A stretch of 64,000 nucleotides of DNA from an uncultured Roseburia sp. (GTDB lineage Bacteria > Bacillota > Clostridia > Lachnospirales > Lachnospiraceae): assembly GCA_947088345.1 (NCBI GenBank), contig CAMUGE010000007.1, positions 25,783 to 89,782 on the forward strand. Direction: 5' to 3'. Shown piece by piece: positions 11,688 through 61,149 of the stretch (its first letter is position 1; the number at the start of each line of letters is the position of its first letter). A model generated the notes under the pieces. The model was not told where the DNA came from and searched no databases. It was given only the letters and a program-made list of their open reading frames with translations. Made by a program: the position numbers and the translations under genes.

Positions 11688-11771
11688 AAAGATGAAAAAT
11701 GAGATGTCACAGATTGTCACATGTTCTGTCCGGATAAAGCGATCTGTAACGCCATAACAGAAATGGAGAAT

Positions 11772-11922
11772 AGTGTGAAAAATCAGCTTGATAGCTGATT
11801 TTATCACACGGCTATTTGTGCCGAGAACGTCACAAATAAGCCCTGATCCGACAAGAGAAACTGCATTCGCAGATTTCTCCTGCGGTTCCTCGAACGTAAA
11901 CGTTCTCGGAATGGAGAATTTT
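11772..11922 (+). repeat. Family 1 structured repeat, copy 1 (apbE leader)
   Basis: A 151-bp element nearly identical to 23901-24051 (three differences seen by eye: two in the first loop, one in the spacer before the ATG). Stem 1 is GTGTGA...TCACAC around AATCAGCT/AGCTGATT (11773-11809). Stem 2 is GGCTATTTGTG with CACAAATAAGCC (11810-11842); its loop CCGAGAACGT (11821-11830) is perfectly complementary to ACGTTCTCGG (11900-11909). Stem 3 is GAGAAACTGC with GCAG-A-TTTCTC (11855-11879). A local hairpin, GAACGT/ACGTTC (11892-11905), competes with the loop-tail pairing. The SD GGAG (11913-11916) follows at once. An SD-GTG mini-ORF of seven codons (MKNQLDS) overlaps stem 1. It could be an RNA regulator, a small mobile element, or both. 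Confidence 0.8.
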
Positions 11923-12951
11923 ATGAGAAAATATGTCGCGCTCCTGCTCGCCGTAAGTGTGCTGACCGCCTGCTTTTACTGTGCGGGATGCGGTAATCCA
12001 AATACGCCGGTTTCAAAATCCGGTTTTTATTTTGATACAGTAATTGAAGTCACTCTCTACGGCCATTCGAATGAGGCTCTGCTCGACGACTGTTTTTCTC
12101 TCGCCGAAAAATATGAAAAACTCTTCTCAAACACCGTTGCAGAAAGTGATATTTCACGCATCAATCACGCGGCCGGCGAGCCTGTTACGGTAGACGACGA
12201 GACGATTGCACTGCTGGAAAAAGGAATCGAATATGGAAAGTTAAGCGACGGCGCATTTGATATCACAATTGGAACATTGTCAAAACTCTGGAATTTTTCC
12301 ACAAAATCAATGCTGGCTGAGACAGACAGCTCAATGATCCCCGCATCGGATGAAATTAAAGACGCGCTCGCCTCGGTAGATTACCGGGCTGTCAAAATTG
12401 ACGGAAATAAAGTATCCCTGACCAATAAAGACGCCCTGCTTGATCTTGGCGGAATCGCAAAAGGATATATTGCCGATCAGATGAAACAATATCTCATCGC
12501 GCACGGCGTCAAAAACGGCTATATCAATCTTGGCGGCAATGTCCTCTGCATTGGGTCAAAACCGGATTCCTCGCCGTATCGCATTGGCATACAGATGCCG
12601 TTTGGGCAGGGCAATGAGATGATTGCATCAGTAGAATTAAGCGACAAAACAGTCGTTTCCTCCGGCGTTTACGAGCGAAATTTTATGGCAGACGGAAAAC
12701 TTTATCATCATATTTTAGATACCTCGACAGGATATCCGTATGAAAACGGTCTGCTCGGCGTAACTATAATCACGGATTCCTCTGCAGACGGGGATGCACT
12801 AAGCACCACCTGTTTTTCTCTCGGCATAAAAGACGGGATGGAACTTATTGAACGTCTGCCGGGTACGGAAGCCATATTTATCACCGAGGATTATGCGCTG
12901 CACAAAAGCTCCGGCATCGGAACCGACATACCGCTCAGAGAGGAACCTTAA
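11923..12951 (+). CDS. apbE: FAD:protein FMN transferase, ApbE lipoprotein
   Basis: ApbE attaches FMN from FAD to Thr or Ser of extracytoplasmic flavoproteins such as Rnf or Nqr subunits. From the ATG at 11923 the protein is about 342 residues: a lipoprotein signal peptide (MRKYVALLLAVSVLTACF, with a second candidate lipobox at YCAGC), then the ApbE fold with FDTVIEVTLYG, SDGAFDITIGTLSKLWNF, LDLGGIAKGYIADQM, GYINLGGNVLCIGSK and the metal-binding LDTSTGYPYENGLLGVTI and ADGDALSTT segments. The start is fixed by the SD at the end of the family 1 repeat. No flavoprotein partner is visible nearby. Its stop overlaps the convergent gene by 4 bp. Confidence 0.93.
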   Translation: MRKYVALLLAVSVLTACFYCAGCGNPNTPVSKSGFYFDTVIEVTLYGHSNEALLDDCFSLAEKYEKLFSNTVAESDISRINHAAGEPVTVDDETIALLEKGIEYGKLSDGAFDITIGTLSKLWNFSTKSMLAETDSSMIPASDEIKDALASVDYRAVKIDGNKVSLTNKDALLDLGGIAKGYIADQMKQYLIAHGVKNGYINLGGNVLCIGSKPDSSPYRIGIQMPFGQGNEMIASVELSDKTVVSSGVYERNFMADGKLYHHILDTSTGYPYENGLLGVTIITDSSADGDALSTTCFSLGIKDGMELIERLPGTEAIFITEDYALHKSSGIGTDIPLREEP

Positions 12952-23900: not shown

Positions 23901-24051
23901 AGTGTGAAAAATCAGCTCAATAGCTGATTTTATCACACGGCTATTTGTGCCGAGAACGTCACAAATAAGCCCTGATCCGACAAGAGAAACTGCATTCGCA
24001 GATTTCTCCTGCGGTTCCTCGAACGTAAACGTTCTCGGAATGGAGATTTTT
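23901..24051 (+). repeat. Family 1 structured repeat, copy 2 (abuts convergent kinase gene)
   Basis: This 151-bp copy carries every paired element of copy 1: stem 1 (23902-23938), stem 2 (23939-23971) with loop CCGAGAACGT (23950-23959) complementary to 24029-24038, stem 3, and the terminal SD. Its mini-ORF reads MKNQLNS. The SD leads to an ATG at 24052, but that frame stops after 13 codons (24052-24093) and lies antisense to the end of the kinase gene. The last two bases of the element are also in the kinase TAA stop. Read on the minus strand, stem 1 (AAAATCAGCT/AGCTGATTTTT) would terminate kinase transcription. The location with no downstream gene points to a dispersed, possibly mobile element. 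Confidence 0.8.
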
Positions 24052-26596
24052 ATGGGCACAGATAGTTCTGTAAAATACGCATACATTCTTTAATATCAAT
24101 CGGTTTTTGTATATGGGCGTTCATACCGCAGTCCAGACATTGCTGTACATCACCGGAAAACGCATCGGCCGTCATTGCAATAATCGGAAGATCCCTGTCG
24201 GAGCGCTCCAATAAGCGGATTGCTTTTGTAGCGTCGTATCCGTTCATCACCGGCATACGAATATCCATAAGTATCGCATCATAATATCCAATTTCAGAAT
24301 TTTCGAATTTTTCTACGCACTCTTTCCCGTTTACGGCCCACTCCAGCTCTAATCCGGATGCAGAAAGGATTTCGCTTGCCACTTCCCAGTTAATCTCAAT
24401 ATCCTCAGCCAAAAGAACACGCTTTCCGGTCAGATCCACTTCCTGCATGTTATCTGTCTTTTCTTCTATCCGGCTGCTGTCCGCATATTTGATCAGGCTG
24501 TGATACAATGTGGATTTAAAAAGAGGTTTCGCTATAAAACCTTCGATTGACGATTCGCTGATTTGCTCTTCAATCTCACTCCAGTCATATGCAGAGATCA
24601 AAAAGATCGGTATGTCCATGCCGACACACTCATGGATTTCATGGATCGTCTGCATTCCGTCCATACCAGGCATCTTCCAGTCAATTAAAACAAAATGATA
24701 GTATTGGTCTGTATTGTGGCGCTCCTTGATCATACGGACCGCCTCTCTTCCGTCGACAGTCCACTCTGCATTGACACCAAGCTCTTTGAGATTTGCAGCG
24801 GCGCTCAGACAGAGCATTTCGTTGTCATCAACTACCAGCACATTCCATGCCGGAAGAATCATTTGCTTTTCGTCATCCTTTTCACGTTTCAAATCAAGGA
24901 TCACACGGAACGTACTTCCCTTTCCAAGCTCGCTTTCCAGTTCAATCGTTCCGTCCATGAGCTCGACAATCCGCCTTGTAATCGCCATGCCAAGGCCGCT
25001 TCCCATAATATGCTGTACTTCTTCGGACTCTGCCCTGGAAAATGTATCCCATATTTTTTGCTGAAACTCCGGAGACATTCCGATTCCGTTATCCTTGACC
25101 GTAAAGTGGGTGCGGATAAATTCCTCCCCGAGCGGCGATTCCTCCTGATACAAATGAATGTCAATCCGGCCTCCCTCAGGCGTATATTTGACTGCATTTG
25201 AAAGAAGATTTAATAAAACCTGATTAAGACGCACATCATCACATAAAACTTCTTCTACCTCTATCTTCTGGATAAAAATATCAAACAGCTGTTTTTTTTC
25301 TTCGACCTGCGGCCGCATAATATTGACCAGATCATCCATAACATCGCGCAGAGACATCGGAACCGGATTTAATGACATTTTACCGCTTTCAATTTTGGAC
25401 ATATCCAGCACGTCATTGATCAGTCCGAGCAGCTGTTTGCTGGAGAGACGTACCTTTTTGAGACAGTCTTCCGTTCGTCCGGGGTCTGTCAGATTTCTCA
25501 TTGCGATTTCAGTCATTCCGATAATAGCGTTCATCGGGGTGCGTATATCGTGGCTCATGCTGGAGAGAAACTCACTTTTTGCCATACTCGCATGAAGCGC
25601 TTCCTCCCGGGCCTTATTGATTTCTATCATCTGCCTCTTCGACAGCTGATAATACAGGTAGAATATGACTGACATGGCGATCAGAATGGTTCCCGCTGAA
25701 ACCGCCATACTGATCATGCGCATATTATCCAGGCCATTAATAGAAGATGTAAGAAAATTATTGGATAGTACCGACACCAGATACCAGGATGAGTTTTCGG
25801 AGATCGGCGCACAGTAAATATGCTTTGTTTCTCCAAAAACAGAAACATTGGCCGCATAAATATTGCCGTCATGCATATTACTTTTTAATTCCTCGATATA
25901 CTGTTCTGCAGTTTTTCCCTCATAATCTTCAAATTCTTCTTTGATTCGATCAAAATAATTTTCCCGGTAAGCGCCTGCGCTTCGAATAATAAAGTTTCCG
26001 TCTCTGTCAATAATATGAAAATATACGACTTCATTGCCGTCCAAAAACAGGACGTCTTTCAGATAATCCATCGGCACCCCAACAATCAACGCTACGCTCC
26101 TGCTTCCGTCGGACATTGGATATTCGGCAGCCCTGCCAAGCAAAAGCACTTTCTCATCGCCGGACGTCTTTGCCTCTGTCACAATACTGCCACTCTTATT
26201 AAGGGTCCTGATAAAATTAAACCCGCCGAACATTTCTATCTCATCCCCATAAAGGGCTTCTACACTGCCGCTTGAAGAGAGCAGGCCCATATAGGAAAAA
26301 TTTCGAATTTCCGCTCCTGTCGTTAACTCTTCTATCATTTCATCGCCGTATTCCATGCTGGCCGGATTTGCACGCCGAATCATTCCCTCGACCTGTTCTA
26401 AACGCAGATTGATAATAGAGCTGAATTTCTGCTGGATCTGCGTATTCATCTCGGACATATAGATATTGCTGGTTTCCCATATTGCAACTTTTGTCCGTTT
26501 TCCCATAAAAAAGGTAAGCCAGACAAAAACAATTGCACAGACGATAATAACACTGACTACGCTGATCCCCAAAAAACGTTTCGTCTTTTTATCCAT
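24050..26596 (-). CDS. Hybrid sensor histidine kinase with two receiver domains
   Basis: An 848-residue membrane kinase. TM1 (about residues 10-30) and TM2 (about 294-316) flank a large extracytoplasmic Cache-like domain (FHIIDRDGNFIIRS; WYLVSVLS). Then HisKA with phospho-acceptor His349 (SMSHDIRTPMNAIIG), HATPase_c (NLLSNAVKYTPEGG; DNGIGM; GSGLGMAI), receiver 1 (Asp639, LIDWKMPGMDG) and receiver 2 (Asp778, MDIRMPVMNGYDA). It has no Hpt domain, but a stand-alone Hpt gene lies 41 bp upstream in the same direction, which would complete a phosphorelay. It is the last gene of the chemosensory cluster, and its stop codon abuts a family 1 repeat. Confidence 0.95.
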   Translation of the reverse strand: MDKKTKRFLGISVVSVIIVCAIVFVWLTFFMGKRTKVAIWETSNIYMSEMNTQIQQKFSSIINLRLEQVEGMIRRANPASMEYGDEMIEELTTGAEIRNFSYMGLLSSSGSVEALYGDEIEMFGGFNFIRTLNKSGSIVTEAKTSGDEKVLLLGRAAEYPMSDGSRSVALIVGVPMDYLKDVLFLDGNEVVYFHIIDRDGNFIIRSAGAYRENYFDRIKEEFEDYEGKTAEQYIEELKSNMHDGNIYAANVSVFGETKHIYCAPISENSSWYLVSVLSNNFLTSSINGLDNMRMISMAVSAGTILIAMSVIFYLYYQLSKRQMIEINKAREEALHASMAKSEFLSSMSHDIRTPMNAIIGMTEIAMRNLTDPGRTEDCLKKVRLSSKQLLGLINDVLDMSKIESGKMSLNPVPMSLRDVMDDLVNIMRPQVEEKKQLFDIFIQKIEVEEVLCDDVRLNQVLLNLLSNAVKYTPEGGRIDIHLYQEESPLGEEFIRTHFTVKDNGIGMSPEFQQKIWDTFSRAESEEVQHIMGSGLGMAITRRIVELMDGTIELESELGKGSTFRVILDLKREKDDEKQMILPAWNVLVVDDNEMLCLSAAANLKELGVNAEWTVDGREAVRMIKERHNTDQYYHFVLIDWKMPGMDGMQTIHEIHECVGMDIPIFLISAYDWSEIEEQISESSIEGFIAKPLFKSTLYHSLIKYADSSRIEEKTDNMQEVDLTGKRVLLAEDIEINWEVASEILSASGLELEWAVNGKECVEKFENSEIGYYDAILMDIRMPVMNGYDATKAIRLLERSDRDLPIIAMTADAFSGDVQQCLDCGMNAHIQKPIDIKECMRILQNYLCP

Positions 26597-39526: not shown

Positions 39527-41017
39527 TTACAGATCATTCCAGATCTGTTTCAGTCCGTCCGCCAGATCCGACGCTGTCAGTCCCCTCTCTCCGTACTGTT
39601 CCGCTTTTTTGTCTCCCGCCATGCCGTGCAGATAAACGCCGAGCAAAGCAGCCGTACCGGGCGCCGCCCCCTGTGCAAGCAGCGAACCGATCAGGCCGCT
39701 TAACACATCGCCGCTTCCGGCTGTGGCCATTCCGGAATTTCCGGTTGTATTCAGATAAAGTTCCCCGTTTGGCAGCGCACTTACCGTTCGAAAATCTTTT
39801 AAAACGCAGACTGTATGATATTTCTCGGACATCTCTTTGGCCGTATCAGGAATCTCAGTCCTGATCCGCCAAATCTCTTTTCCGGTCAGGCGCGCCATTT
39901 CCCCGACATGCGGCGTTATAATTTTATTTTCCCCAAGCATGTGCAAAAGACTTTTCTTTCCCGCCATGATATTCAACGCGTCCGCATCCAGCAAAACCGG
40001 TTTCTCTGTTTCTCTTAAAACGGCTTCAACGAGCTCTTTGGCCGCATCCCCATCTCCAAGCCCCGGTCCTATCACGATGGCGTCTGCCTGGCAGATCGTT
40101 GGTGAAAAATCGATCTCCCTGCTGTTTTTATCATATGTTTCAAGCACCGCTTCCGGCACTGCCGTCTGTAAAATTATCCTGTTTTCTGCAGGCGTCAGAA
40201 CTTTCACAAGCCCGCATCCGCAGCAAATGGCTGCTCTTGCCGCAAGAATGGCAGCGCCAGCCATGTTGACTGACCCGGCAATCATCAACAGCTTTCCATA
40301 AGTTCCTTTGTGTGAATGAGCATAGCGTTTTGGCAGCAAATTTTCTATGTCTTCTTTTTCCAGCATCCGAAACTTCGGTATTTTCCCCAGAAAACTGCTC
40401 TCGTCGATTCCAATTTCCCGTACCGCCACTTTTCCGGCATATTCGACGCCGGGCCAGAGCATACTACCGCATTTTGCAAACGCAAAAGTAACGGTCAGGT
40501 CCGCCCGAAACGCTGTTCCAAAGATTTTTCCGGTATCGGCGGACAAACCGGAAGAAATGTCGATTGCTGCCTTAAAACCGCACAGCCCGTTCATCTGATC
40601 AATTTTTTCTGCATATTTGCCGGTAACTTCCCGCGTTAAGCCAACGCCAAAGATTGCGTCGATCACAACTGTATAGTTTTCTTTTGGAATTTCCTCTTTC
40701 ACCGAAATTCCGTAAGCCGTGAGAATGTCTAGCTGAAGAAGGTTTGACTCTGTAGCGCTCTCCCTGTTCCCGACATAAACAACTGTTACATCCGATTTTT
40801 TCTGTGACAGAAGTCTTGCAGCGGCAAGCCCGTCCCCGCCGTTATTTCCCGCTCCGCATACAATCAGCGCTTTAGACGTATCAACGTTTTGACATGCAAG
40901 CTCATCGACAAAGGCCAGTGCGGCACGTTCCATCAATACAATGGAAGGAACTTTAAAATATCCGGCTGTATTTGTATCGTATGTTTTCATTTCACTGCTG
41001 TTTACAAGATATTTCAT
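39527..41017 (-). CDS. nnr: Bifunctional NAD(P)HX epimerase/dehydratase
   Basis: A 496-residue repair enzyme for hydrated NAD(P)H: an N-terminal epimerase domain (YLVNSSEMKTYD; LIVCGAGNNGGDGLAAARL; VIDAIFGVGLTREV) and a C-terminal ADP- or ATP-dependent dehydratase with AGSVNMAGAAILAARAA, AIVIGPGLG, LDADALN, ITPHVGEMARLTG and GMATAGSGDVLSGLIG. The frame runs on to 41107, but residues 1-30 of that frame are translated from the family 2 repeat. The ATG at 41017 follows the repeat's terminal GGGGG ribosome site and gives the normal N-terminus. Confidence 0.95.
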   Translation of the reverse strand: MKYLVNSSEMKTYDTNTAGYFKVPSIVLMERAALAFVDELACQNVDTSKALIVCGAGNNGGDGLAAARLLSQKKSDVTVVYVGNRESATESNLLQLDILTAYGISVKEEIPKENYTVVIDAIFGVGLTREVTGKYAEKIDQMNGLCGFKAAIDISSGLSADTGKIFGTAFRADLTVTFAFAKCGSMLWPGVEYAGKVAVREIGIDESSFLGKIPKFRMLEKEDIENLLPKRYAHSHKGTYGKLLMIAGSVNMAGAAILAARAAICCGCGLVKVLTPAENRIILQTAVPEAVLETYDKNSREIDFSPTICQADAIVIGPGLGDGDAAKELVEAVLRETEKPVLLDADALNIMAGKKSLLHMLGENKIITPHVGEMARLTGKEIWRIRTEIPDTAKEMSEKYHTVCVLKDFRTVSALPNGELYLNTTGNSGMATAGSGDVLSGLIGSLLAQGAAPGTAALLGVYLHGMAGDKKAEQYGERGLTASDLADGLKQIWNDL

Positions 41018-41075
41018 AAAAACCCCCGTTTCTGCAATGCGAATGCAGTTCGCATTCGCTTTATGCGCATAAGCG
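41018..41075 (-). repeat. Family 2 leader repeat, copy A (nnr)
   Basis: In minus-strand orientation this copy has CGCTTATGCGCATAAAGCG, then a perfect 8-bp hairpin GCGAATGC-GAACT-GCATTCGC, then TTGCAGAAACGGGGG and the nnr ATG. It closely matches 44979-45035 and 61032-61089. The AACTGCATTCGCA core is identical to a core in the family 1 repeat (11859-11871). Confidence 0.75.
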
Positions 41076-41140
41076 ACTTTAGCGCGCATCCTCGAAAAAA
41101 AGGGCATTGCGCCGCCGCAACACCCGTCCTGTTATTTTTG

Positions 41141-43766: not shown

Positions 43767-44978
43767 CTATTTATATTCTTTCTCCAAGTTCTCGCGTATC
43801 GCTTTGATAAATCCCTCGCTGCTTAACACAACCGGATTTTCGATCGTTGTAATTAACGCAAGGTCTTTTGTCATTTTGCCCTCTTCTATCGTCGATACAC
43901 AGGCATGTTCCAGTCTGTCTGCAAATTGTACAAGCTCTTTTATTCCGTCTATCTCTCCTCGCTTGCGCAGTGCGCCTGTCCACGCAAAAATAGTCGCAAC
44001 GGAGTTTGTAGATGTCTCCTCTCCGTTTAAATGTTTATAGTAATGGCGCTGAACTGTTCCATGCGCCGCCTCATATTCATAATATCCGTCCGGTGATACC
44101 AGAACCGAAGTCATCATGGCCAGCGATCCGAATGCGCTTGAAATCATATCGCTCATTACATCGCCGTCATAATTTTTACATGCCCAGATATAGCCGCCCT
44201 CCGACTTCATCACACGAGCTACTGCATCGTCGATCAATGTATAAAAATAGGTAATCCCGGCCGCCTCAAATTTTTCTTTATATTCTTCGTCAAATATCTG
44301 CTGGAAAATATCTTTAAACGTATGATCATATTTTTTGGAAATGGTATCTTTCGTCGCAAACCACAAATCCTGCTTTGTGTCCAGCGCAAAATTAAAACAG
44401 CTTTTTGCAAAACTTTCAATGGAACCGTTTAAATTATGCTGTCCCTGTATCACTCCTGCGCCGTCGAATGTATGGATCAGTTCCGTTGTCTTTGTTCCGT
44501 CTGCAGCCGTAAAGACAAGCTCGCATTTGCCAGGGCCGTTTATCTTCATCTCGGATGCCTTATAGACGTCTCCATATGCATGTCTCGCAATCGTGATCGG
44601 TTTTTTCCAGCTTTTTACATTTGGCTCAATCCCTTTTACAACAATCGGAGCTCGAAAAACCGTGCCGTCAAGCATTGCACGTATCGTACCGTTTGGACTT
44701 TTCCACATTTCTTTTAAATTGTACTCCGTCATGCGAGCTGCATTTGGCGTAATCGTAGCACATTTTACTGCAACTCCATATTTTTTTGTCGCATTCGCAG
44801 AATCAATTGTAACCTGATCGTTTGTCTCGTTGCGGTATTTAAGACCAAGATCATAATATTCCGTATTCAGTTCAATAAACGGATTCAAAAGCTCCTCTTT
44901 GATCATCTTCCAGAGGATTCTCGTCATCTCGTCGCCGTCCATCTCCACCAAAGGTGTTGTCATCTTAATTTTTTCCAT
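43767..44978 (-). CDS. icd: NADP-dependent isocitrate dehydrogenase
   Basis: About 403 residues, of the type II (homodimeric, eukaryote-like) class. Seen: [47 protein letters not shown], the substrate loop [29 protein letters not shown], the metal site [19 protein letters not shown] and [16 protein letters not shown]. It makes 2-oxoglutarate for glutamate, which also feeds proline synthesis. The start at 44978 is preferred over 44990: TGGAG six bases upstream is the terminal SD of the family 2 repeat. A strong promoter lies at 45062-45091. Confidence 0.96.
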
Positions 44979-45035
44979 TTTAATCTCCATTTCTGCATTG
45001 AGAACGCAGTTCGCATTCGCTTTTTGCGCATAAGC
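44979..45035 (-). repeat. Family 2 leader repeat, copy B (icd)
   Basis: Minus-strand order: GCTTATGCGCAAAAAGCG, GCGAATGC-GAACT-GCGTTCTC (stem with one mismatch), AATGCAGAAATGGAG, ATG. It lies between the icd promoter and the icd start, so it is transcribed as the leader. Confidence 0.7.
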
Positions 45036-45061
45036 TCTTTTCTGCTAAATTTTATTGTCCT

Positions 45062-45199: not shown

Positions 45200-48100
45200 T
45201 TACTTGATTTTAATTCTTATCTTTGCCGTCTTTTTGGAGCCGTCTGTTGCTTTCGCTGTGATCGTAACACGTTTTCCTTTTCCGGCTTTTTTTGCTGTTA
45301 CGACGCCTTTTTTCGAGACTGTCGCATATTTTTTATTGCTTGTCGTCCACTTTAACTTCTTGCTGGCTGCCGGGCTGTTTGTCGTGACAACCGCTTTGAT
45401 TGTCAGTTTCTTTCCGGCTTTTACCGATGCCTTTGCTGTAAGTTTAATTTTTGTTACAAGCGCTTTTTTGATCTGAAGACGATAAGTTCCCTTTATGCCT
45501 GAACCGTCAGCTGCCTTTGCAGTAATTACAACAGATTTCCCCGCGCCCGCCTTTTTCGGGGTTACAATACCGCTCTTGCTGACCGTCGCATATTTTGTAT
45601 TGCCGCTGCTCCAAATTACCTGTTTGTTTGCAGCGTTCAGCGGCAGTACTTCTGCTTTGAGTGTCAGTTTATTGCCCACGACAACTTTGTTCGATTTTGC
45701 CGTGACGCGGATCGACTGAACTTTTGCCTGCAGCTGTGAATCGCCCGAATTTTGGTCTGTCGGTTTCGGATTGGTCGGCAGCGGATCAGTTGGTTTTGGA
45801 TCGGTTGGCAGCGGATCGGTTGGCAGCGGATCAGTCGGTTTTGGATCGGTCGGTTCCGGATCGGTTGGCAACGGATCGGTCGGCAGCGGATCAGTCGGTT
45901 TTGGATCGGTTGGCAACGGATCGGTTGGCAACGGATCAGTCGGTTTTGGATCGGTCGGTTTTGGATCCGTCGGCAGCGGATCCGTCGGTTCCGGTTCGGT
46001 CGGTTTTGGATCCGTCGGTTCCGGATCAGTTGGCTTTGGATCCGTCGGCAGCGGATCCGTCGGTTCCGGTTCGGTCGGTTCCGGGTCCGTCGGTTCGGTC
46101 GGCTCTGGATCGGTCGGTTCCGGGTCTTTTGGTTTTGATACGGTAACGGTTATACCTCCTGTCGACGCGTTCACGGTTTTTCCTGCCTCATCCGTAACAG
46201 TCAGGCGGCAGGTAAGCGTTACGTCACCCTCCTCTACGCCAAAGGATGCTCCCGTTTTTTCAAATTCCCATGACAGATGGTTCCGTCCCGGATTTAACTG
46301 TACCTGTTTGGAAATAGAACTTACTTTTTCCTGTTTCTCATCAAAAAATTCTGCATTTAATGTCACATTCCGTGCAGAGGCAGAATTTGATATCAATTCT
46401 GCAGATATGGTTCCGCCCAGTTCATTTTTCTCATCACAGGCAGCTTCCGCCAAAAACTCTTTTATTTTCACAGAAAAATCTGCATCGCCCGCTACAAACG
46501 AGCTGACGGTCTGCCCGTTTTCCACTGCGGCAGTCTGCCCGTCGATGGTAACGGCCGCGTCATTTTGTACGTTTACAGTAATCGCGCCCTCCTGTGACAC
46601 AGTAACGGCTGCATCGTCTGTTATCTCAATGGACCGCTCCATTCCCTGCTCATTAACCAGATTGATAACCGTTGTTTTCGGCTCTGCAGAATCAGATTCC
46701 ACTGCAATTGTAAGATCGCCCTCATTCCCGCCGGTACTGTTTACTGTAAGCACGGCGTCCCGATCAGAAGACGTAATCTCTGCGAAACTGTCCTCCGATG
46801 CCATATAGAATGTAACAGACTGCTGTTCTTTTGTACCGGTCTTTGTCTGGCTGCCCGCATCCGCCGCCTGATCTGCACGGATCTGGTAATTCCCTTCCGG
46901 CAGCACATAACTTCTGATTCCGGAAAACGTATCGTCGGCCGCACCGTTTAAGTGCATCTGCTCATACGCGCCCTCTATCTGGTCAATCCCCTCTCCGGCT
47001 TCGTTCGTCAGGCTGACATGATCGCTGTCAATCGACAGGTAGACAGATGTATCAACCGTGCTGTCGTGCAGCACAACGCCGGACATTGCGTTTGCAAACG
47101 TACTGTAATTCATATAGGATGCCGAACGATACGGCCCGTATTCTATTGCGCTCAAATCTTTCTTTACAGTCAGTGTCTGCAGGGCCCGCGGTTCGTTGGG
47201 GTCGTATATCTTCATCAGGAAATCGCCGTTGTCCGCCTGTTCGACAGAAACCGGAACTACCGCATGGCCGGCATTCTCTGAACAGATTACCATAATCACC
47301 GGATCTGCATCGGAATCAACGGACAGCCCGCCGGAGCGCTCAAAATCCTCCACCCGCTGAATCAGAGTGCGCAAACTGTTATAGTTTCTATAAACAGCCC
47401 CGCTGCTTGACGCTATGGACGGCTTATACTGTGAAATCTGCCCCGCCTCAATCAGTCTGGTCAGTTTCGCGGATGCACTCATCGGTGCAGGAACCGCAAA
47501 CAGATCCTGTGCGGACACTCCGTAATCAGAAAGCCGGTACTCTTCCGGGTTTTCATAAAAGGAAAGCGTCGTGGCCGCCATCCCGTAACAGCTGCCGCCC
47601 CATTTCTCATTGACGACATAATAATAGGTTCCTTTAATAATACTGTCCAGTACATCGACATAGCGCTGTCTGGGAATCCTGTAATCCACAGGATAGCCGA
47701 AAGAAGCATGGCTGTTTGCAAACGAATAATGATCTTTTTGTTCCGTATAAAATTTCGTAAGGCCGCACACAGGGATACTGTTCCAGACCCCGCCAAGCGC
47801 CTCCCAGTCTGCGTTGGGACTCCGATAATAAAACGTCAGCCCGGCTGCGCAGCCGTCAAACCCGTCCTGCGCCAGGGACGCCGGTACATTTCCGTAAAAA
47901 TATACTTTTTCCAGCGCCTGACAGCCCGAAAACGCGCCGGATGAAACCGCGGCTGTTTTAGCCGGGATATTTACGGAGCGAAGAGACGCGCACCCGCCAA
48001 ATGCATTCTGACCGATCCCGGTTACGCTCTCCGGAATCAGCATGCCGGTCAGCGCGCTGCAGCCGGAAAATACATCCGCATCAATCACCGTAAGACGTGC

Positions 48101-60317: not shown

Positions 60318-61031
60318 TTAATTATTTTTATTTCTTATGCACGATTCAAATGAGCCTGTGTTCAGATCAATATAGCGCACGAACAGTGACACTTTGTTCT
60401 CCTCATTCAAATTTTCCCACACAAAATCAGCAAATGTTTTCATATCGCCGGCTATGGAAACCAGCTTCGGCTCGCCGGAAAAACTCGGCAAAGGATTTCC
60501 GTCTCCCATATATGTATGAATAAAATGAGCTTCACCGGCTACGGGATTCTCATAAGCAAATGTATAACGGCTGCAGGAATCCGGATTTCCGTTATTACTC
60601 TTTAAAATTGACATTGCGTAGTTAAACCCGCCGTCATTTAAATGTACGATCCCGGAAATACGCGGCGTATAATTTGGCGCATCCGGCTCAAACGTTCTGC
60701 TGCGCAGCGATTGTTCAAATGTCTGCTGCCTGTCCATACACTCGTAAATTGTATCCGTCTGATCGCCGTTCGTTACAATCGTTTTATTGCCAAGCACACG
60801 AACCGGAGCATAAATGACAAGGCTCGGATCGGTCATTTTGGACGGTTCAAACGCCTGTGTGCGTATACCCTGCCCATCCTCGATAAAGATACGATTCCTG
60901 CTGTTTTCACTTCTTCCCATAATAAAATAAGCAATGACAGCAGAACCGCCGTCCGCAGATCTTCCGATCACAATACCCCTCCCGGGGTAAGAATTTCCTG
61001 CCAGTTCCTCTTTTAACGATAACTTTTCCAT
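60318..61031 (-). CDS. IMP cyclohydrolase, PurO type
   Basis: About 237 residues of the IMP_cyclohyd family first known from archaea. Seen: NSYPGRGIVIGRSADGGSAV, IAYFIMGRSENSRNRIF, DPSLVIYAPVRVLGN, VTNGDQTDTIYE and PRISGIVHLNDGGFNYAMSI. It closes FAICAR to IMP. Together with the next gene it replaces bifunctional PurH. The frame to 61106 is rejected because its first 25 residues come from the family 2 repeat; the ATG at 61031 has ATGGAGGTTATT before it. A strong promoter lies at 61150-61178. Confidence 0.92.
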   Translation of the reverse strand: MEKLSLKEELAGNSYPGRGIVIGRSADGGSAVIAYFIMGRSENSRNRIFIEDGQGIRTQAFEPSKMTDPSLVIYAPVRVLGNKTIVTNGDQTDTIYECMDRQQTFEQSLRSRTFEPDAPNYTPRISGIVHLNDGGFNYAMSILKSNNGNPDSCSRYTFAYENPVAGEAHFIHTYMGDGNPLPSFSGEPKLVSIAGDMKTFADFVWENLNEENKVSLFVRYIDLNTGSFESCIRNKNN

Positions 61032-61089
61032 AATAACCTCCATTTCTGCATTGCGAACGCAGTTCGCATTCGCTTTATGCGCATAAGCG
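61032..61089 (-). repeat. Family 2 leader repeat, copy C (PurO-type gene)
   Basis: Minus-strand order: CGCTTATGCGCATAAAGCG, GCGAATGC-GAACT-GCGTTCGC (8-bp stem with one U-G pair where copy A has U-A), AATGCAGAAATGGAGG, TTATT, ATG. It lies wholly within the transcribed leader. An alternative stem CGCTT/AAGCG shares the GCG of the second hairpin. Confidence 0.75.
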
Positions 61090-61149
61090 GCTTTGTGCCA
61101 AGCCATTTATGGTTTCGCGTAAACATTGCCTGAATATTCCATCCCGTTT

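Follow-up and report, generated by a model that had tools for sequence, protein, structure and literature searches.

In the window, i.e. the whole 64-kb stretch of DNA that was analysed, a 151-bp repeat (hereafter family 1) occurs twice, at positions 11772-11922 and 23901-24051. A sequence-only reading had described the two copies as about 98% identical, with two adjacent changes in the loop of stem 1. The identity is confirmed, with mismatches at 3 of 151 positions: the adjacent pair 11789-11790 does fall in that loop, and a third mismatch at 11918, past the Shine-Dalgarno (SD) sequence, had been overlooked. Each copy consists, in this order, of a 5′ hairpin, a hairpin with a 10-nt loop, a third hairpin, a tail, the trinucleotide AAT and GGAG (Table 1). 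The three proposed stems are present in both, the last 10 nt of the tail are the exact complement of loop 2 in both, and the built-in ribosome site is found as an SD at the 3′ end of the element.

Copy 1 runs up to the apbE start codon; the product of this gene matches PF02424 (E 2.5e-87). It had been called the apbE leader behind a promoter; the adjacency holds, while the promoter is unproven because a single weak promoter-like match lies upstream of the copy on the plus strand (there were 4 matches on both strands, compared to a mean of 1.4 in shuffles). Copy 2 is the leader of no known gene. From the ATG at its end starts an ORF of 13 codons, probably no real gene, which runs towards a convergent minus-strand ORF (24050-26596, 848 aa). 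The earlier reading missed a second SD directly upstream of the repeat, which is the key to its nature.

Table 1. Coordinates of family 1 parts, adjoining features and family 2 copies in the window
Feature	Position	Strand	Basis and remarks
Copy 1, orphan upstream SD (GGAG) of the target gene	11765-11768	+	sequence; 4 nt before the element
Copy 1, stem 1, 5′ hairpin GTGTGAAAAATCAGCT/AGCTGATTTTATCACAC	11773-11809	+	sequence
Copy 1, stem 2	11810-11842	+	sequence, covariation
Copy 1, loop 2, 10 nt, CCGAGAACGT (pseudoknot 5′ half)	11821-11830	+	sequence, covariation
Copy 1, stem 3	11848-11885	+	sequence; covariation of the corresponding helix in relatives
Copy 1, competing hairpin GAACGT/ACGTTC	11892-11905	+	sequence
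Copy 1, tail ACGTTCTCGG (pseudoknot 3′ half)	11900-11909	+	sequence, covariation
Copy 1, element-side SD (GGAG)	11913-11916	+	sequence; 6 nt before the apbE ATG
apbE CDS (ApbE family)	11923-12951	+	ORF list, Pfam
Copy 2 of the element	23902-24041	+	sequence, BLAST; site empty in G051 (L228)
Copy 2, element-side SD	24042-24045	+	sequence
13-codon ORF behind copy 2	24052-24093	+	ORF list; ATG at the copy 2 end
Family 2, shorter structured repeat, window copies	41010-41087, 44971-45048, 61024-61101	-	

Distribution of the repeat and its RNA fold

In the genome to which the window belongs (G000), BLAST returned 16 matches, of which one is another copy's palindromic arm. The covariance-model search that had been proposed brought further copies: a model built from 10 copies (R1) gave 15 matches at E ≤ 1 in this genome, the weakest at 0.029. 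Six copies are 96-100% identical over 148-152 bp, and the repeat count is far beyond chance. Across the genus, R1 matched 13 of 62 genomes, own genome included, with up to 24 matches per genome. A second model built from 28 more distant copies (R2) matched 42 of 299 Lachnospiraceae genomes; at most 14 candidates were scored per genome in this survey, hence its per-genome counts are lower bounds. In a class-wide sample of 291 genomes, with Lachnospiraceae members in unspecified number among them, two matched, i.e. the own genome and another of its family. A DNA pattern on the stem 2 loop found at least 117 stretches. Among the matches listed (80 titles) nearly all were Lachnospiraceae or loosely labelled Clostridia MAGs and isolates, with Eisenbergiella, Acetatifactor, Parablautia and isolate COE1 as carriers, and there were two loci labelled Bacillus sp. 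and one labelled Pseudoalteromonas. Family 1 is a dispersed RNA element in many Lachnospiraceae gut bacteria. Its subfamilies are genome-specific: the 10-nt loop is found in G000 and its sister genome G051, a 9-nt loop in a second sister pair, G041 and G042.

A scan of the window against Rfam release 15 gave a tRNA as sole match, and the five matches of the repeat itself (E 0.25 to 1.8) were all far under the gathering scores. The view that this is an undescribed structured RNA holds up, with a loop-tail pseudoknot that covaries. The covariation set for the 10-nt loop contained 15 diverse copies, including three phage-labelled records found via their 5′ halves. Here the loop-tail helix, for which a covariation check had been suggested, is formed in 149 of 150 cells, and 5 of its 10 pairs carry double changes, in 16 cells. 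Shuffled sets gave 3.1 pairs and 4.5 cells, and the observed values were reached by 23 and 0 of 500 shuffles, respectively. Slid registers were far below the true register; the count of further pair types was no better than in shuffles. Loop and tail partners read CCGAGAACGT/ACGTTCTCGG, CCGGAGCGT/ACGCTCCGG, CCGAAGCGT/ACGCTTCGG and CCGCAGGCGT/GCGCCTGCGG.

For the 9-nt loop, 28 diverse copies were used. The full structure including the pseudoknot pairs in 94.4% of 952 cells, with double-sided changes at 13 pairs and in 98 cells versus 10.5 and 33.5 in shuffles (13 pairs were reached by 16 of 500 shuffles, 98 cells by 0 of 500). For the pseudoknot helix the paired share is 99.6%, and 2 of its 9 pairs carry double changes, in a set whose pattern-found members fix part of the loop by construction. 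The helix corresponding to stem 3 has double changes at 8 of 12 pairs; its 3-pair outer extension pairs in 69% of the cells and has none. Within the own genome alone no pair shows a double-sided change; there, some pairs have become wobble pairs through a change on one side, and a few are broken. Across the sets, the helices including the pseudoknot covary as in a structured cis-acting RNA. Stem 1 varies between subfamilies yet keeps its self-complementarity (judged by eye), and the orthologous pair L092/L071 has a compensatory change in it. An optional extra hairpin (GTGAACTTGTTCAC or GCAAACTTGTTTGC) lies between stems 1 and 2 in L007, L009, L052, L053, L092, L096 and others, which makes the element modular. 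A start-stop codon (GTG-TGA) at the 5′ end, considered by eye, was inconsistent across subfamilies and was dropped.

The pseudoknot had been proposed to control access to the ribosome site, in competition with the GAACGT/ACGTTC hairpin. That hairpin is present in the window copies and is not family-wide: in a set of 147 unique copies pre-filtered for a pseudoknot run of at least 5, it forms at least 4 pairs in 76, compared to a pseudoknot run of at least 8 in 125. The knot itself stands, as its covariation shows; the SD is not inside it, as the fold ends 3 nt before the element-side SD. In nested folding of 37 copies the mean predicted probability of an unpaired SD was 0.42 for the native sequence, 0.33 with the element shuffled and 0.55 with the pseudoknot strands set aside, so that setting them aside leaves the SD more open. 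Openness exceeded the shuffled value in 22 of 37 native copies and in 28 of 37 in the pseudoknot version. The predicted gain in SD accessibility is modest and, as a signal, weak; it suggests that the fold may keep the SD open in the cell.

Position at gene starts and downstream genes

In total, 193 records were collected, 72 by model or BLAST and 121 by pattern. The tail was located in 155 and a pseudoknot run of at least 6 in 143; some pattern copies, from about L152 to L183, were scored by script alone. Among the 143, a start codon opening an ORF of at least 50 aa stands behind 48 of 53 copies from model or BLAST and 77 of 90 from the pattern, as opposed to 869 of 5720 random positions and 1885 of 8242 GGAG positions in the same loci. 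Six of the 143 copies were the same locus twice, and their removal leaves 119 of 137; ORFs of at least 20 codons running off the locus had first been accepted, and the strict rule gives the identical count. Without the pseudoknot filter the result is 133 of 155. The start codon lies 6-17 nt past the CGGAA end, mostly 10-13. In G042 an ORF of at least 50 aa stands behind 25 of the 28 copies read.

Among 20 downstream proteins scanned in two genomes, 18 match Pfam families: ApbE, resolvase, nucleotidyltransferase, dihydroorotase-like amidohydrolase, polyphosphate kinase, zinc-ribbon protein, NrdD, two response regulators, S18, glycerol-3-phosphate dehydrogenase, DHFR, FliJ, amino-acid kinase, ribosome-binding GTPase, asparagine synthase, WhiA and M24 peptidase. 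Further genes behind copies, read by eye, are presumably those for DnaK, RecG and Fmt. These 20 proteins share no common pathway. The element had been thought to combine the traits of a riboswitch-like leader with those of a dispersed repeat; dispersal and the position as gene leader are borne out, whereas a riboswitch tied to apbE or to flavins is not supported: the downstream genes are unrelated, and the sites differ between sister species. Copies of different subfamilies, L052 in G051 and L096 in G042, precede what seems to be the same rbgA-like GTPase gene (L052 assigned by eye), with the sister sites empty; this gene is possibly a recurrent target.

Occupied and empty sites in sister genomes

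Empty sites were sought with joined flanks in the sister genome (G000/G051 and G041/G042). In 21 of 21 pairs, read by eye, the element lies between the target's own SD-like sequence, which is orphaned upstream and usually directly 5′ of the element, and the start codon; after the element a second SD stands ahead of the same start codon. The site of copy 1 is empty in G051 (L258) and reads ...AAATGAGGAATATTATG. Likewise, L003/L234 compares an empty CCGGAGGTTTTCTATG with an occupied CCGGAGGTTTA-element-GGAGGTTTTTTATG, and L085/L342 an empty AATGAATGGAGAGTAATATG with AATGAATGGAGAGTA-element-GGAGAGTAATATG. Of the 15 G000/G051 sites searched, nine were left out of the junction count: L002 (no gene start in G051), L053 (upstream flank too divergent), L008 (an extra family-2-like remnant, by eye), L005 and L058 (ambiguous), L010 (aligns through, i.e. 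occupied in both), L011 (without a G051 match among those listed), and L007 and L009 (alignment on the downstream side only). The empty site of copy 2 in G051 (L228) has no start codon at that place; therefore an SD-like sequence may suffice for insertion. Nested copies inside the SD of an earlier copy were found at L128, L142, L187 and L223.

The two flanks overlap by -10 to +12 nt, and by at least 7 nt in 6 of 21 junctions, as scored against a sister site that may itself have changed; L050, for instance, scores -7 though its own two flanks share ACGGAGGATT. The longest target duplications are 12 nt (L085), 11 nt (L096), 10 nt (L336) and 8 nt (L327 and L003); part of the longest ones may reflect an accidental resemblance to the GAAT in which the element ends. 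At L087 the empty site reads AAGGCATTAGTATG and the right side GGAGATTATTATG, and the right-hand SD is not the target's. From such cases it follows that the SD is sometimes duplicated target and sometimes seemingly brought by the element. In 76 copies the longest string common to the left and right flanks averaged 4.70 compared to 4.24 for permuted flanks (sd 0.11, p 3e-4). The rows of this test include some pairs of orthologues, a few copies with a wrongly placed tail and one copy whose flank was unparsed. The match of a copy's own flanks is above that of permuted flanks, but modest.

Dispersed copies with empty sites, the duplications of 8-12 nt in some copies and the permutation test would all suit an ordinary non-autonomous, MITE-like DNA transposon, moved by a DDE or other transposase preferring GGAG, with the RNA fold incidental. 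Yet terminal inverted repeats are lacking (the best comparisons, made in copy 1, gave 9 matches in 27 nt and 9 in 30 nt), and a fixed target-site duplication was rejected, as the flanks match but their lengths vary, a picture that later spacer drift may blur. The covariation in the RNA sense and the adjacency to start codons in one orientation also speak against it, and we regard such a transposon as improbable. With a junction overlap of variable length, the data do not demonstrate classical transposition, and at some copies the right-hand SD seems to stem from the donor.

Known mobilising enzymes were searched for by Pfam. The reverse transcriptase family PF00078 had no match in G000 (90.5% complete), G042 (99%), G051 (87%) and G036; G041, G050 and G057 have a single match apiece, in every case interrupted by an internal stop. 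The Y1 transposase family PF01797 had none in G000, G036, G041, G042, G050 and G051; G057, which holds 13 copies, has one Y1 match beside its interrupted reverse transcriptase. With neither an RVT_1 nor a Y1 match in G000, G042 and G051, a target-primed retroelement and a REP/RAYT or IS200-like element were both set aside. A longer autonomous version was sought in G042 with the 5′ half, and none of the six further copies read from this search had a long insert. One of the six was already listed (L395, ambiguous as to a following ORF); the other five, absent from the first model list, all have an ORF of at least 50 aa behind them. The search also gave two weak matches, C16:67617 and C29:19629. 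For the partial copies L012 and L014 of G000, the 3-kb loci contain no second half. Plasmid sequences gave no match. Three human-faecal scaffolds deposited as Bacteriophage sp. (L403, L404, L405; GenBank MT837007, MT836788, MT838414) carry full elements, and two of them have cellular-looking genes that we take by eye to be enolase and Tex, for which reasons they look like mislabelled bacterial sequence. Viral vehicles were likewise discarded: of three pattern matches in viral contigs, one is a full element and two look like chance. An enzyme acting in trans may move the element.

In loci common to G041 and G042, the 500 bp downstream show about 94-98% identity between the two genomes. Of the listed copies, 22 of 24 were read in G041 and 22 of 23 in G042. 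Six copies are common by an ortholog test and two more (L083, L090) on inspection. Among the 32 copies unshared in the test, 17 were searched, and 15 have an empty sister site; L083 is occupied in the sister too and L091 matched on the downstream side only. Ancestral leaders lost independently could produce such a pattern, as short direct repeats flank some copies and precise recombination between the two flanking SDs would remove the element cleanly and mimic an empty site. This is very unlikely in view of the nested insertions and of subfamilies that are genome-specific, with near-identical copies within a genome, which indicates recent amplification. Gain rather than loss would lie behind most site differences.

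Once in place, the element appears to be conserved, as judged from a small ortholog sample. In four orthologous pairs with collinear flanks there are 10 differences in 573 positions of the element, 52 in 800 upstream and 64 in 1200 of the first 300 bp of CDS (Fisher tests of element versus upstream and CDS, 1.6e-5 and 2e-4, non-independence ignored). One of them, L095/L079, has no intact ORF downstream and holds 7 of the 10 element differences. For three further pairs, in which the upstream flank was not collinear or incomplete, element and CDS compare as 4/144 versus 18/300, 9/147 versus 12/300 and 3/99 versus 14/300; the second, L092/L071, runs counter to constraint. Over all seven pairs the element has 26/963 and the CDS 108/2100 differences. 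Copy-specific oddities are kept between the orthologs L006/L051 and L080/L094, which argues against mere homogenisation.

Such conservation, together with a covarying pseudoknot beside the SD, the competing hairpin in part of the copies and the rbgA-like gene hit in two lineages, would be expected of a cis-regulatory RNA (a riboswitch, a protein-bound leader or a thermometer) in which pseudoknot and hairpin switch many SDs together upon a shared signal, its spread having built a regulon. A regulatory role of the leader is possible. As a full account a shared-signal regulon seems unlikely to us, given downstream genes as unrelated as those for DHFR, S18, ApbE, polyphosphate kinase, NrdD and WhiA, sites that differ between close species, an SD outside the pseudoknot and a switch hairpin that is weak or absent in about half of the copies.

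A probable mobile leader and related repeats

We consider it likely that family 1 is a mobile non-coding leader RNA of about 140 bp that inserts between a gene's SD and its start codon, supplies another SD in exchange and is conserved from then on. The element would arrive between the two in the reading direction of the gene, stranding the old SD upstream, and a new SD, provided by its own 3′ end or by a copied stretch of the target, would come to stand at the proper distance from the same start codon. The RNA comprises the 5′ hairpin, a second hairpin with a loop-tail pseudoknot of 9-10 bp and the third hairpin. Because the fold ends 3 nt before the new SD, its role is most likely that of a compact leader for translation initiation, complete in itself, whose SD stays usable whatever the context. 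The pseudoknot may act as a compact spacer, whereby the insertion is tolerated, and the target gene would later depend on the element.

If this holds, the leaders of the DHFR and ribosomal protein S18 genes would be examples of replacement within a genus. Dispersed repeats are commonly thought to persist by avoiding genes; family 1 sits at the ribosome-binding site, apparently harmless there because a working SD ends up in place. The element would also be a natural, testable portable 5′ leader, and the question arises what recognises SD sites in DNA or RNA. On this view, conserved structured leaders of gut bacteria need not be riboswitches.

REP elements are hairpin repeats scattered through the genome and mobilised in trans by RAYT (Y1) transposases. 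Family 1 shares the scattered hairpins, whereas G000, G041, G042 and G051 lack a Y1 match, and to our knowledge REPs do not serve as SD-specific leaders. Translational pseudoknot riboswitches such as preQ1 have a leader pseudoknot near the SD, as in family 1; in the latter, the SD is not in the knot and no ligand is implied. Riboswitches of the preQ1 type are not known to be dispersed among unrelated genes at polymorphic sites.

BOX, RUP and SPRITE of Streptococcus pneumoniae are small dispersed repeats, BOX being modular, which are transcribed at operon 5′ and 3′ ends, mutually nested and low in transposition rate; the trp leader contains a BOX flanked by two T boxes, and BOX-encoded ORFs lack good SDs (PMC3049150). 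Family 1 resembles them in dispersal, in the type of location at transcript ends and in nested copies. Unlike family 1, they are not described in the relevant passages as lying between SD and start codon or as having a loop-tail pseudoknot (PMC3049150). ERIC/IRU, Correia/NEMIS and other MITEs are short and dispersed, and their folded RNA can affect neighbouring mRNAs, according to the main texts of two reviews (PMC2229807, PMC10969869). In these texts MITEs are defined by inverted repeats, whereas family 1 has no terminal inverted repeats and inserts in the SD spacer; the word "Shine" is absent from the first (PMC2229807), "Shine-Dalgarno" from the second (PMC10969869) and "start codon" from both. 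Nothing comparable was found in the open-licence PMC literature, which does not imply absence from print overall.

The shorter repeat, family 2, is a second family with the start-codon habit of family 1. In the own genome at least 40 matches to it were obtained, with 40 of 67 candidates put through scoring. Of 30 fetched loci, 27 have the family end, mostly GCAGAAATGGAG or GCAGAAATGGGG, followed by ATG, and 23 of these open an ORF of at least 50 aa. Its window copies end GCAGAAATGGAG-N-ATG at start codons, one copy reading GCAGAAACGGGG; behind the copy at 44971 lies a 403-aa protein that we take by eye to be isocitrate dehydrogenase. The orphan flank of family 1 copy 1 reads CAGAAATGGAG, the same as the family 2 end. 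Tentatively, and with slightly more doubt than confidence, we propose a new element class of mobile translation-initiation leaders, comprising several unrelated families in Lachnospiraceae, families 1 and 2 among them, that are guided by SDs and may confer shared translational control in some lineages. Having each arrived at this strategy, they would have replaced the leaders of dozens of genes in a single genome, among them housekeeping genes.

Two further repeats were observed. A third dispersed repeat (AAGTACTAAGT..TCACGCCGAAAAACGCC) with many matches occurs in the flanks of L007, L009 and L014 of the own genome and also in G051, sometimes directly upstream of family 1 copies. At 45696-46145 of the window there is an imperfect direct repeat array with a 15-bp period, possibly in coding sequence.
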